Assembly: GCF_004803695.1 (NCBI RefSeq) | Contig: NZ_CP039393.1 | Coordinates: forward strand, 682,001 to 746,000 | From: Muribaculum gordoncarteri | GTDB lineage: Bacteria; Bacteroidota; Bacteroidia; Bacteroidales; Muribaculaceae | DNA length: 64,000 nt | Reading direction: 5' to 3' | Shown: piece by piece, positions 14,162-18,335 of the stretch | Position numbering within the stretch: the first letter of the stretch is position 1 | Layout of the letters: every line of letters starts with the position of its first letter | Program-made: the position numbers and the translations under genes | Notes under the pieces: model-generated | Seen by the model: only the letters and a program-made list of their open reading frames with translations | Database searches by the model: none | What the model was told of the DNA's origin: nothing

Positions 14162-14224
14162 AATTACACTTTTGGGTATGGCTCAGAATTAGCCACTTTT
14201 GTAATTTTGCGGAAAAATAGAGTT

Positions 14225-16882
14225 ATGTCAAAACGATTCTTCACATATATGTTGCTTATTGTCGTTGCCTTTTCGGCTATGGCGCAGATTAATGTGACAG
14301 GAAAAGTCATTGACAAGGAGAGCAATGAACCGCTGACAGGGGCGTCGGTGATTGTCAAGGGAGCCGACGGCAAAATCAAGAAATTTGCCTCGTCGAAAGC
14401 CGACGGCGCATTCGCTATGACGCTGCCGTTGGTCAATGGTTGCCGATTGGAAGTTGCCATGATGAGTTTCGCCAAGCAGTCTATTCCACTTGACAGCGTG
14501 ACATTTCCTTTGACCGTCTACATGGAGCCGGGAGCTACATTGCTTAAAGAGGTGACGGTAAAAGCCGACCGCATACGTGAGCAGGGAGATACGATTACCT
14601 ATAATGTCGGCAGCTTCGCCCAACAGCAGGATCGCTCCATAGGCGATGTGCTGAAGCGTATGCCCGGCATCGATGTTGCCAAAAACGGCAAAATTCAGTA
14701 TCAAGGCGAGGACATCAACAAGTTCTATATCGAAGGCTCCGACCTTCTCGGCGGTAAATATGGAATCGCTACCAACGGTATCAGTCATGATGATGTAGGT
14801 GCGGTCGAGGTGATGGAAAACCATCAGCCTATGCAAGTGCTGTCAGGTATCTCATTTTCCGACAAGGCGGCTATCAATCTCAAGTTGAAAAACAAGGCCA
14901 AGGCCACATGGACTTTCCACGGTGATGCCGGCGGCGGTTACTCGTGGCAGCCCGATGGAGCGATTTGGGATGGCGAACTGTTCACAATGGCTGTGATGCC
15001 ATCGTTTCAGAACATAACCACCTTCCGCACCAACAACACGGGCGAGGATCTTTCATCGTCAAGCATCGACTTCTTCGCCGGTCGTCGCAATTCGGGATTG
15101 AGCCGTTATGTGAGCGTAGGCCTGCCGGGCGTACCGTCACTTAGCGAAAAGCGTACACTGTTTAACCGCTCGTTTCTCGTGTCGACCAATAGCCTGTGGA
15201 AACTGAAAAACGGCGAGTTCAAGGTCAACATCGACTACTCCTTCAACCGCGTTACGGCCGATGCCTCCAACACCACGACATACTTCTTACCCGATGTGGG
15301 ACAACGCGGACGCGAAGTATCGCGTCCCTACGATGGAAACCGCATAATTACCGAAAACCGCAGTGGCACCGAACACTCTCACTCGCTCAGCGGCAAGTTC
15401 ATCTATGAGTTGAACCGGCGGACTGCTTTCATCAACAACACGTTACGTACTAATGTAGACTGGGATGATGTCGACCTCGTAACATCGGGGTCGATACCCA
15501 ACGAGCAGTCGGCGAAACTGCCTGACTACTATGTCAGCAACAACTTCAAGATGATAAAACGCTTCAAAGGAAACCATCTTGTAACGCTGCAGAGCGTCAA
15601 CGAATGGGAATCGCTGCCGCAGACACTTACTTTGACTATGGTCCCTGATGCTGCGGACGCGAAGTATCGCGTCCCTACCGGCAATAAATTTAGTCAGCAC
15701 ATCTCCGATCACGCTTTCTATACTCACGAGAGTGCGGCTTACGCATTCAATATAAAGGGTGTGACGCTGAGTCTTGAAGGCGGCATAAAGGGGTACTTCC
15801 GTTCTATGGATTCGCAGTTGCCCGACTTTCCTGAGGAGGTGCCCGGACTTACTGAAAACGTAGTCAATACCAACTACATGACGGTATATGCCGACCCGGA
15901 GTTTGAATACTGGGTACGCCGTGTCAACATTTCACTCAACCTGCCTGTAAGTTACGCGCATTACACCTTCGACAAGGCTATCGCCAATCATGATGAGGTA
16001 TATTTCTCGCCGTCGTTAAGCTTCGACTGGAAGCCCAACAACCGCTTCTCGGGATCGTTTAGCGGCGGTCTTGGTCGCTCGCCTATGAACATGAATCTTA
16101 TCCATCCGGGACTCATAATGACCAACTACCGCACGTTGAAAGCGGGAACTGAACAATTTTACAACTCTTCGTCGCAGAATGTGTCGGCAAGCGTCAGCTA
16201 CAAGCACACCCGTCACGGACTCTTTGCCAACGGAATCGTAATGCAGTCGTGGACTCACATTCCCTACACGATGTCACAGCAGCTCTATGGCGACTATGTT
16301 GTCTACAGCTATGCCGACGCCGACAACGACAGCCGTATGCTCATGGCTATGGGAAGTGTCGGCAAGACGCTCGACTTCATGCGGGGAAGCTGCAACGTGA
16401 ACGGGTCGTTCAGCCGCAACGAGTCGCAGCTGTTTTCGCAGCAACAATCGGTCAACTCGGTCAGCACCGGTTGGAGCATTGGCGGCAAAATTAACGGCAA
16501 TCCATGTCGCTGGTTCAGCTTCGACTATAGCATAGATTATTCCGACAGTCGCCTGACAATGAACGGCATGAGCGAGTCATGGCTCTCGACTATGGAAAAT
16601 GAGCTGAGCCTCACATTCATTCCCTACCGCAGATGGCAATGGACCGTAAGCGGCGAGCATTACCGCAACGAGATAACTGAAAACTCATTCAAGAATGTCG
16701 TTATGCTCGACACCAAGCTCATCTATCAGTTCAACAAGAGGATAGAACTTGCCGCGTCGCTCACCAACATCCTCAACAAGCGCAGTTACAACTACATAAC
16801 CTATTCGCAGCTCTCATCATTTGAGAGTCAGCGACAGCTCCGCGGTCGTCAGCTCCTATTCTCGATAACCCTCCGAAAATGA
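14225..16882 (+). CDS. TonB-receptor-like outer-membrane protein with carboxypeptidase regulatory-like domain
   Basis: An 885-residue protein. The signal peptide ends at about residue 20 (AFSAMAQ). A CarboxypepD_reg-like beta-sandwich follows (about 22-100, VTGKVIDKESNEPLTGASVIV), then a plug-like segment (about 105-210, LKEVTVKADRI, IGDVLKRMPGIDV) and a long beta-barrel ending in FSITLRK. I chose ATG 14225 because the earlier in-frame TTG (14207) overlaps the promoter-like TAATTTTG at 14202-14209. Such proteins typically accompany GLPGLI genes; substrate is unknown. Two identical 26-base REP palindromes lie inside the coding sequence (15306, 15653) and are read in different frames. The stop overlaps the next start (ATGA). 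Confidence 0.85.
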   Translation: MSKRFFTYMLLIVVAFSAMAQINVTGKVIDKESNEPLTGASVIVKGADGKIKKFASSKADGAFAMTLPLVNGCRLEVAMMSFAKQSIPLDSVTFPLTVYMEPGATLLKEVTVKADRIREQGDTITYNVGSFAQQQDRSIGDVLKRMPGIDVAKNGKIQYQGEDINKFYIEGSDLLGGKYGIATNGISHDDVGAVEVMENHQPMQVLSGISFSDKAAINLKLKNKAKATWTFHGDAGGGYSWQPDGAIWDGELFTMAVMPSFQNITTFRTNNTGEDLSSSSIDFFAGRRNSGLSRYVSVGLPGVPSLSEKRTLFNRSFLVSTNSLWKLKNGEFKVNIDYSFNRVTADASNTTTYFLPDVGQRGREVSRPYDGNRIITENRSGTEHSHSLSGKFIYELNRRTAFINNTLRTNVDWDDVDLVTSGSIPNEQSAKLPDYYVSNNFKMIKRFKGNHLVTLQSVNEWESLPQTLTLTMVPDAADAKYRVPTGNKFSQHISDHAFYTHESAAYAFNIKGVTLSLEGGIKGYFRSMDSQLPDFPEEVPGLTENVVNTNYMTVYADPEFEYWVRRVNISLNLPVSYAHYTFDKAIANHDEVYFSPSLSFDWKPNNRFSGSFSGGLGRSPMNMNLIHPGLIMTNYRTLKAGTEQFYNSSSQNVSASVSYKHTRHGLFANGIVMQSWTHIPYTMSQQLYGDYVVYSYADADNDSRMLMAMGSVGKTLDFMRGSCNVNGSFSRNESQLFSQQQSVNSVSTGWSIGGKINGNPCRWFSFDYSIDYSDSRLTMNGMSESWLSTMENELSLTFIPYRRWQWTVSGEHYRNEITENSFKNVVMLDTKLIYQFNKRIELAASLTNILNKRSYNYITYSQLSSFESQRQLRGRQLLFSITLRK
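15306..15331 (-). repeat. REP palindrome, copy 1 (inside the outer-membrane protein gene)
   Basis: A 26-base element: GCGGACGCGA, AG, TATCGCGTCCCTAC. Read on the minus strand it begins GTAG followed by a GGACGCGA...TCGCGTCC hairpin, the layout of REP elements used by RAYT transposases. It codes here for RGREVSRPY. Confidence 0.85.
15653..15678 (-). repeat. REP palindrome, copy 2 (inside the outer-membrane protein gene)
   Basis: Identical over all 26 bases to copy 1 and in the same orientation, but translated in another frame, giving ADAKYRVPT. The same DNA in a different frame shows that the conserved unit is the DNA and not a protein motif. Confidence 0.85.
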
Positions 16883-17481
16883 GCATTATGGTTGATCGTC
16901 ACATGTTTCGCGCTGAATGGCATGACTATAACGACGGGATATTCTTCGTTACCGTATGCGCCAAAGATAAAAAGCATCTCTTTGGAACGATAAGTAATGA
17001 TGAAATGCACAAAACCGCATTAGGTGCAATTGTCGAAGAATGTATACAAGCCATTCCTGCACATCATCCCCAAGTCAACATACCCAACTATGTAATAATG
17101 CCCAACCACATCCATTTAATCATCGCAACAGTAGGGACGCGATATATCGCGTCCGCAACAGCAAAATTAGCAAAAGCAGAAATACCGGAAACAACAGAAC
17201 CAATAAATCCACTAAAACCATCCATCGGCTGTCTAAAACCACCTGCACATGGAGAGCCAATAATTGATTATCATCACAATTCAAGGTTGGCGGTAATAAT
17301 AGGTTCATTAAAAGCTGCGGTAACTCGCATTGCCCGGACGCGATGTATCGCGTCCCTACCGTGCTGGCAATCACGGTTTCATGAACATATTATAAGGAAT
17401 CAACGCGCGTTTGACAATATTATGGATTATATCGACAATAATGTTGCTCGCTGGGAGCAAGATTGTTTCAATTTAAAATAA
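16879..17481 (+). CDS. REP-associated tyrosine transposase (RAYT, Y1/HUH family)
   Basis: A 200-residue single-strand transposase. The N-terminus RAEWHDYNDGIFFVTVCAKD and the HUH motif PNHIHLII (His77, His79) are typical. Tyr184 in IMDYIDNN is the expected catalytic tyrosine. RLAVIIGSLKAAVTRIAR (about 136-153) and WQSRFHEHIIRNQ (163-175) match the family core. RAYTs act on hairpin DNA elements (REPs) with a GTAG foot. Unusually, two REP copies (17131, 17334) sit inside this gene in opposite orientations and encode VGTRYIASA (85-93) and RTRCIASLP (153-161). The active site appears intact. The start ATG overlaps the stop of the preceding gene by four bases. Confidence 0.9.
   Translation: MSIMVDRHMFRAEWHDYNDGIFFVTVCAKDKKHLFGTISNDEMHKTALGAIVEECIQAIPAHHPQVNIPNYVIMPNHIHLIIATVGTRYIASATAKLAKAEIPETTEPINPLKPSIGCLKPPAHGEPIIDYHHNSRLAVIIGSLKAAVTRIARTRCIASLPCWQSRFHEHIIRNQRAFDNIMDYIDNNVARWEQDCFNLK
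17131..17156 (+). repeat. REP palindrome, copy 3 (inside the RAYT gene)
   Basis: GTAG is followed by a perfect 20-base palindrome (GGACGCGATA and its complement) and GC. It is the inverse orientation of copies 1, 2 and 4, with the GTAG foot on the plus strand. Confidence 0.88.
17334..17359 (-). repeat. REP palindrome, copy 4 (inside the RAYT gene)
   Basis: CCGGACGCGATGTATCGCGT then CCCTAC. The GTAG foot is on the minus strand, so copies 3 and 4 form an inverted pair with both feet pointing outward, 229 bases end to end. Confidence 0.88.
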
Positions 17482-17489
17482 ATATTTAT

Positions 17490-18335
17490 ATGATTAATAA
17501 AGTAACAGCTATGCTTATGTGCCTTGTGGCAATAGCCGCAAGTGCACAGCCGCAGGCCGACATCGAGGTCAGCTACACGGCTCATCATCCCAATCTTCGC
17601 AACGGTAAGGATGATCTTACAAGTCAGTATATTTTGCTCGCCAATGGTGATGAGTCAAAATTCTTCTCGCCGATGACCGAATATGTAGATTCGCTCAACT
17701 CTACGCCTGAAGGGAAAGCAAAACTGAATGAGATGACGAGCAATGCCTTTCTCGGAGGAAAATTGGACGATATACCTCGTTCCGACGGCTCATACTATGT
17801 CGTTAAATCGGTTGACAAATATACTTATTATGACAACTCCGGCTTTGAAAAATACGTGTATGAAGAGCCTGTTGCCGAAATGAAGTGGGAAGTTGCAGAA
17901 GATTCAACTAAGAATATCCTCGGTTATGAGTGCATAATGGCTGTTGTCGATTATCACGGCCGCCGATGGACTGCATGGTTCACGCCTGAGATTCCTATAA
18001 ATGCCGGACCGTGGAAATTTGCCGGTCTTCCGGGACTGATATTGGAGGCGACTGCCGACGGCAACCAATACAGCTTTGTGGCAACGGGTCTTCAGCAAAC
18101 CGACAAGCCCATAACTCCTGTATATCTTGCAAATGAATATGAGAAGACCGACCGCATTAAATTCTTAAAGGCGCGTCGCAGTTTCCTCGACAATCCGTTG
18201 GGTAAAATCAACGCCCAATTCGCCGGTGCCGGAGTCACTGTGGGCAAAGTTCAAAACGAGGACGGCAGTGACGCTACAGGCTCAATCTTCGCACCCGCTT
18301 CGGTCGTCGACCTTATCGAAACCGACTATCATTAA
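17490..18335 (+). CDS. GLPGLI family protein, intact
   Basis: A 281-residue secreted protein. The signal peptide ends AIAASAQ (about residue 19). The core is LGYECIMAVVDYHGRRWTAW, followed by PEIPINAGPWKFAGLPGLIL, containing the family's naming motif. ATG 17490 is preferred over an in-frame TTG (17463), which overlaps the RAYT gene end. It is a clear paralogue of the broken gene at 13284 (same blocks in the same order). Function is unknown; the family is usually paired with carboxypeptidase-regulatory-domain outer-membrane proteins, here separated from it by the RAYT gene. Confidence 0.88.
   Translation: MINKVTAMLMCLVAIAASAQPQADIEVSYTAHHPNLRNGKDDLTSQYILLANGDESKFFSPMTEYVDSLNSTPEGKAKLNEMTSNAFLGGKLDDIPRSDGSYYVVKSVDKYTYYDNSGFEKYVYEEPVAEMKWEVAEDSTKNILGYECIMAVVDYHGRRWTAWFTPEIPINAGPWKFAGLPGLILEATADGNQYSFVATGLQQTDKPITPVYLANEYEKTDRIKFLKARRSFLDNPLGKINAQFAGAGVTVGKVQNEDGSDATGSIFAPASVVDLIETDYH

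Follow-up and report, generated by a model that had tools for sequence, protein, structure and literature searches.

An inverted pair of REP palindromes within the reading frame of a Muribaculum gordoncarteri RAYT gene, and apparently concerted change of such pairs in related genes

RAYTs are described as domesticated single-strand nucleases, and the Escherichia coli family member TnpA-REP is reported to cut GTAG hairpins on single-stranded DNA and to rejoin them (PMC8266576). For TnpA-REP subclass 2.4, Quentin et al. (2018; PMC6006769) describe in-frame REP insertions between the HuH and Tyr motifs. According to that paper, the subclass corresponds to RAYT group 4 of Bertels et al. (2017), its variable region lies away from the catalytic site on the authors' model, and a 'large majority', not all, of its genes are flanked by REPs within 1 kb. 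In-frame REPs were reported in many other genes by Di Nocera et al. (2013; PMC3733652), who, where they discuss RAYT genes, treat them as flanked by REPs or overlapped by them at the ends and not, like the gene described here, as internal hosts. The Rickettsia palindromic elements mentioned in the same source are another case of palindromic repeats that entered genes in frame; RPE-1 is described there as longer.

We analysed a RAYT gene in a 64,000-nucleotide stretch of the Muribaculum gordoncarteri genome (NZ_CP039393.1, positions 682,001 to 746,000), referred to here as the window; its features are collected in Table 1. The product is 200 aa long and the start codon overlaps the stop codon of the upstream gene. 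Pfam Y1_Tnp matches it with 25.6 bits, above the curated cut-off of 23, and NCBIfam REP_Tyr_transpos (NF047646) with 55.1 bits, below the curated cut-off of 80; a six-frame Y1_Tnp search of the same genome listed two other places and did not return this gene. The sole PDB match up to E 1 was 4ER8, an E. coli-type TnpA-REP structure (E 0.16). His77, His79 and Tyr184, which the original prediction had judged intact, are indeed present, as are W163 and Q164. All five are invariant in an alignment of 66 sequences, an invariance that is partly circular because the rows were preselected by their HUH, W and Tyr motifs. The genome encodes a second Y1-type protein (L002, a frame of 315 residues) that is quite unlike the window RAYT and in which the palindrome scan listed no palindrome.

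Table 1. Features of the RAYT locus (positions in the window)
Feature	Position	Strand	Basis or remark
Upstream gene, outer-membrane-type protein with CarboxypepD_reg-like domain	14207..16882	+	ORF listed from TTG; the start may be a later ATG
REP (loop variant), in frame in upstream gene	15308..15331	-	13-column insertion, gap in 8 of 9 homologues
REP (loop variant as at 15308), in frame in upstream gene	15655..15678	-	12-column insertion, gap in 9 of 9 homologues
RAYT / TnpA-REP gene	16879..17481	+	ORF, Pfam Y1_Tnp, HUH and Tyr motifs
REP1 gtagGGACGCGATATATCGCGTCCgc	17131..17156	+	GTAG foot on sense strand; translated VGTRYIASA
REP2 ccGGACGCGATGTATCGCGTCCctac	17334..17359	-	GTAG foot on antisense strand; + strand translated RTRCIASL
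Downstream gene, Porph_ging family	17490..18335	+	Pfam (window gene only)

REP1 and REP2 lie between the HUH and Tyr motifs, at residues about 85-93 and 152-161, and leave the reading frame unbroken. They are in frame and mutually inverted with their GTAG feet outward, a REPIN-like orientation, as had been predicted. Their core, GGACGCGATNNATCGCGTCC, occurs at 14 places in the genome with up to two mismatches, against 0 for the backwards pattern, so that the element recurs elsewhere and belongs to a dispersed repeat family. In the window, four matches with up to three mismatches compare with a mean of 0.01 in 100 window shuffles; these shuffles, together with the codon-shuffled controls given below, reject chance palindromes. 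Four of the 14 places cluster within 2.1 kb at the RAYT gene, two inside it and two in the upstream gene. Of the remaining 10, two stand singly and eight make up four inverted pairs whose members are separated by 97-168 bases. Both GTAG feet face outward in three of these outside pairs; the fourth has one degenerate member. REPs of the genome's own family thus sit inside the RAYT ORF, and the proposed physical coupling of the enzyme's code to its presumed substrate holds. REPs also reach into coding sequence elsewhere in this genome: three similar genes (L008, L010 and L016, on C1 near 1947176, 2443373 and 2532862) terminate within a REP that codes for the final residues, ..KRRDAIHRVRK or ..KRRDAIHRARK, and the L008 gene matches DUF6291.

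The window gene resembles subclass 2.4, as set out in PMC6006769, in its length of about 200 aa, its variable stretch between HUH and Tyr and its internal REPs with the frame kept, and Bacteroidetes are among the main hosts of that subclass. The HUH motif NH[IFV]H is present as NHIH (residues 76-79) and the WQ motif as W163 and Q164. The Tyr motif YIxNNP reads YIDNNV, which agrees in Y, I, N and N and has V for the final P. Unlike the long REP of subclass 2.4, with three consecutive G-C pairs at the base of the stem, or its double-foot REP, the window REP has G-C, G-C and A-T at its stem base; this feature describes the REP and not the enzyme, and relatives with GGGCGC REP types do have three G-C pairs at the stem base. 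The window RAYT also differs from the flanked majority of the subclass in that no copy of its core, the one type sought, flanks it within 1 kb; the nearest copies outside the gene stand some 1.2 and 1.55 kb ahead of its start codon. The gene is probably a further case of the already described subclass 2.4-type RAYT with internal REPs. The original prediction knew of no described case; on this point it was anticipated by the in-frame REPs of subclass 2.4 in PMC6006769.

The clearest sequence evidence of REP insertion at this locus comes from the upstream gene. Its product was aligned with those of 9 of 11 foreign loci in other genomes (up to 83% identical), and the two REPs coincide with the gaps given in Table 1. 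Clean gaps of the kind that the original prediction had asked for in the RAYT are clearly seen here; at the first insertion one homologue (L111) has a shorter, unrelated filler instead. These two copies are GTAG-tagged and in frame, like the intragenic REPs that Di Nocera et al. describe (PMC3733652), and are read in two different phases. At seven of nine homologous loci the upstream gene is immediately succeeded by a gene that by eye resembles the Porph_ging-family gene, and a RAYT is absent from between them; at the other two (L114 and L115) other sequence follows. Because the neighbours adjoin without a RAYT at seven of the nine loci, the gene probably came to this locus with hardly anything beyond its ORF, although the loss of older flanks would look alike.

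The concentration of four of the 14 genomic core places within 2.1 kb, two of them in the next gene and in two other phases, would fit neutral local hopping, in which the enzyme acts near its own gene and the internal REPs are the copies that survived in frame in loops and are not maintained. The variable region of subclass 2.4, which lies away from the catalytic site on the model in PMC6006769, would be suited to such survival.

Of the 297 genomes searched in the family, 86, its own included, contain a match to the RAYT with an E value of 1e-10 or lower. From the best 90 places listed, which are not a random sample, 82 genes with a whole HUH-to-Tyr frame were taken, the window gene among them; the other eight loci had no such frame by motif search. 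GTAG-footed palindromes between HUH and Tyr were found in 32 of these 82 genes among the matches listed, again counting the window gene (28 under the strict criterion), against a mean of 0.46 and a maximum of 3 in 100 codon shuffles. The remaining 50 have no internal REP by the stem-8 criterion. Counts and pairs use a stem of 8 with at most one mismatch, the strict counts a stem of 9 with none. A second set of 80 loci from named genomes, which by title come from Clostridia, Bacteroidota, Chloroflexi, WOR-3, Synergistaceae and others, gave 74 usable genes, six loci having no whole HUH-to-Tyr frame. Here 41 of 74 genes carry internal footed palindromes (33 strict; codon-shuffled mean 0.43, maximum 3, 100 shuffles). 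The two sets may overlap, as L124 and L040 look alike.

The aligned homologues without REPs do not encode the residues of REP1 and REP2, and the idea that these residues are common to REP-free homologues was rejected for the aligned RAYT rows. With the element also present elsewhere in the genome, neither of the two refuting conditions named in the original prediction holds. The expectation that such homologues would show clean gaps was borne out only in part: both loops vary in length, and clean gaps at both sites were not demonstrated. One REP-less homologue (L025) is as long as the window RAYT at the second site, and in another group only a few residues separate REP-less from REP-bearing relatives. 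Pooled over both sets, the distance from HUH to W does not differ between 73 REP-bearing and 83 REP-free genes (Mann-Whitney P 0.13), with medians of 77 versus 65 aa in the family set and 48 versus 46 in the named set. Since these lengths do not differ, the REP of most genes may stand in place of former loop sequence instead of lengthening the loop, and the comparison does not establish simple insertion for the majority.

Homologues carry REPs in the same loops as the window RAYT, and most of these share its reading phase, but the REP sequences differ (another gene has, for example, the stem type GGGCGCAATACATTGCGCCC). Among the matches listed for the family, the sense-footed REPs of the HUH-Tyr stretch all use a single phase (11 of 11), the antisense-footed ones fall into the three phases as 20, 12 and 0, and the eight that are footed on both sides divide into 5 and 3. 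The third phase, empty for antisense feet, is nevertheless open (stop-free) for the window element. A palindrome in that phase does occur in L041, where it has no GTAG foot. This bias, the recurrence of REP sites across diverged genes and the concert within internal pairs described below all run against neutral hopping, although shared descent accounts for part of the pattern and the footless palindrome of L041 does lie in the third phase. Neutral hopping would again fit two genes with 97% identity (see below), between which the REP stretch has turned over. On balance we regard neutral hopping as a possible but unlikely account of the internal REPs.

A left-footed and a right-footed REP are found together between HUH and Tyr in 13 family genes among the matches listed, including the window gene; one of them (L039) has a stop codon in its match. 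Nine of the 13 (L017, L018, L020, L021, L024, L029, L032, L040 and L052) use the two loops of the window RAYT, and the other four have both REPs in the first loop. Within a gene the two members agree on average at 19.54 of 20 bases; between genes they differ. When the right-hand copies were permuted among the genes the mean fell to 14.49, and the observed value was reached in 0 of 10,000 permutations, a procedure that ignores relatedness (L036 and L039 are close relatives). In nine right-hand-loop cores, chosen by eye as distinct, every stem pair is kept (100% of cells paired), and the covariation score was reached by 0 of 500 shuffles. Pairs altered on both sides numbered two of eight, which 127 of 500 shuffles of these nine sequences matched. 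In L020 and L022, whose DNA is 97% identical, most of the difference lies in the left loop, where the REP stretch is rearranged; both frames stay open (L022 contains unread bases), and the two genes form a natural pair for the study of recent REP turnover. L021 carries, besides its matched pair, a third palindrome in an N-terminal loop, which is of the GGACGCGAT type and has the foot gaag in place of GTAG; the RAYT gene may thus also admit a REP type other than that of its pair. What may be new here is that both internal copies change together over evolution. The passages of PMC6006769 considered here do not describe the matched inverted pair, its concerted change, the paired stems or the gene-confined REP types.

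In 15 genomes, picked among those with internal REPs, we looked for further copies of the internal types with an exact GTAG-hairpin pattern, which misses decayed copies. An identical copy lies outside the gene in eight of them (G057, G175, G195, G232, G243, G260, G272 and G283); in G260 it lies only beside the gene, in G283 just one of the two types inside the gene has such a copy, and the internal copy of G232 stands behind the Tyr motif. Two more genomes (G024 and G218) have only one-base variants outside, which brings those with an identical or one-base-different copy to 10 of 15. The exact pattern found the internal type nowhere outside the gene in the other five (G026, G178, G099, G182 and G071, with assemblies 91, 91, 76, 99 and 99% complete). 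One internal copy in G182 lies behind the Tyr motif, and the second internal copy in G099 is decayed. Because their internal type was found nowhere else, exchange with a dispersed REP population cannot be acting now in these five genomes.

Such confinement is what would be expected if selection kept the REP pair in the gene as a self-carried substrate, whereby enzyme and target would move and be inherited as a unit and could found a fresh REP population after transfer. The concerted pairs and paired stems agree with this, as does the window RAYT standing alone between genes that are adjacent at seven of nine loci, with the nearest other core copies more than 1 kb upstream. However, 50 of the 82 family genes among the matches listed do without an internal REP, the assemblies of G099, G026 and G178 are only 76 to 91% complete, the exact pattern overlooks decayed copies, and the loss of a former dispersed population would give the same picture. 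We therefore consider selection for a self-carried substrate improbable.

The internal hairpins, or a long helix between them, could instead act in the mRNA by slowing translation or by binding the enzyme. The RAYT gene RNA does fold more stably than 20 shuffles of it (z -4.5), with REP1 paired to REP2 in the predicted best fold, and the same holds for single-stranded DNA of the REP stretch against 200 shuffles (z -6.3). These folds are no evidence of function, because any inverted palindromes would pair in this way. For 42 of the 45 internal REPs in the named set, moreover, GTAG stands only on the antisense strand, so that their mRNA would lack the recognised GTAG hairpin. Autoregulation through the mRNA is thus very improbable.

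The reading that we favour, and hold to be moderately probable from the sequence comparisons, is that of a subclass 2.4 RAYT whose loops host its presumed cognate REPs, which are kept in step by exchange. By analogy with E. coli TnpA-REP, REPs would have landed in or near the enzyme's own gene because the enzyme would cut and rejoin GTAG hairpins on single-stranded DNA. Only copies in frame and in tolerant loops would have survived. Later exchange of whole hairpins among REP copies, driven by the enzyme or by gene conversion, would keep the internal copies matched to each other and to the REP type of the genome without disturbing the frame. A bolder proposal, which we find doubtful, is that the gene retains the internal pair as part of itself and so forms a self-contained enzyme-plus-substrate cassette. 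The enzyme's own target would then encode its loops, both copies would be updated in concert as its specificity changes, and the gene could start a new REP population after transfer to another genome.

RAYT genes have tolerated short palindromes as protein-coding sequence many times over. Genes with two matched copies of their presumed target keep a gene-by-gene record of the REP that belongs to each enzyme, and exchanging loops and hairpins between them would put enzyme-target co-evolution to the test.
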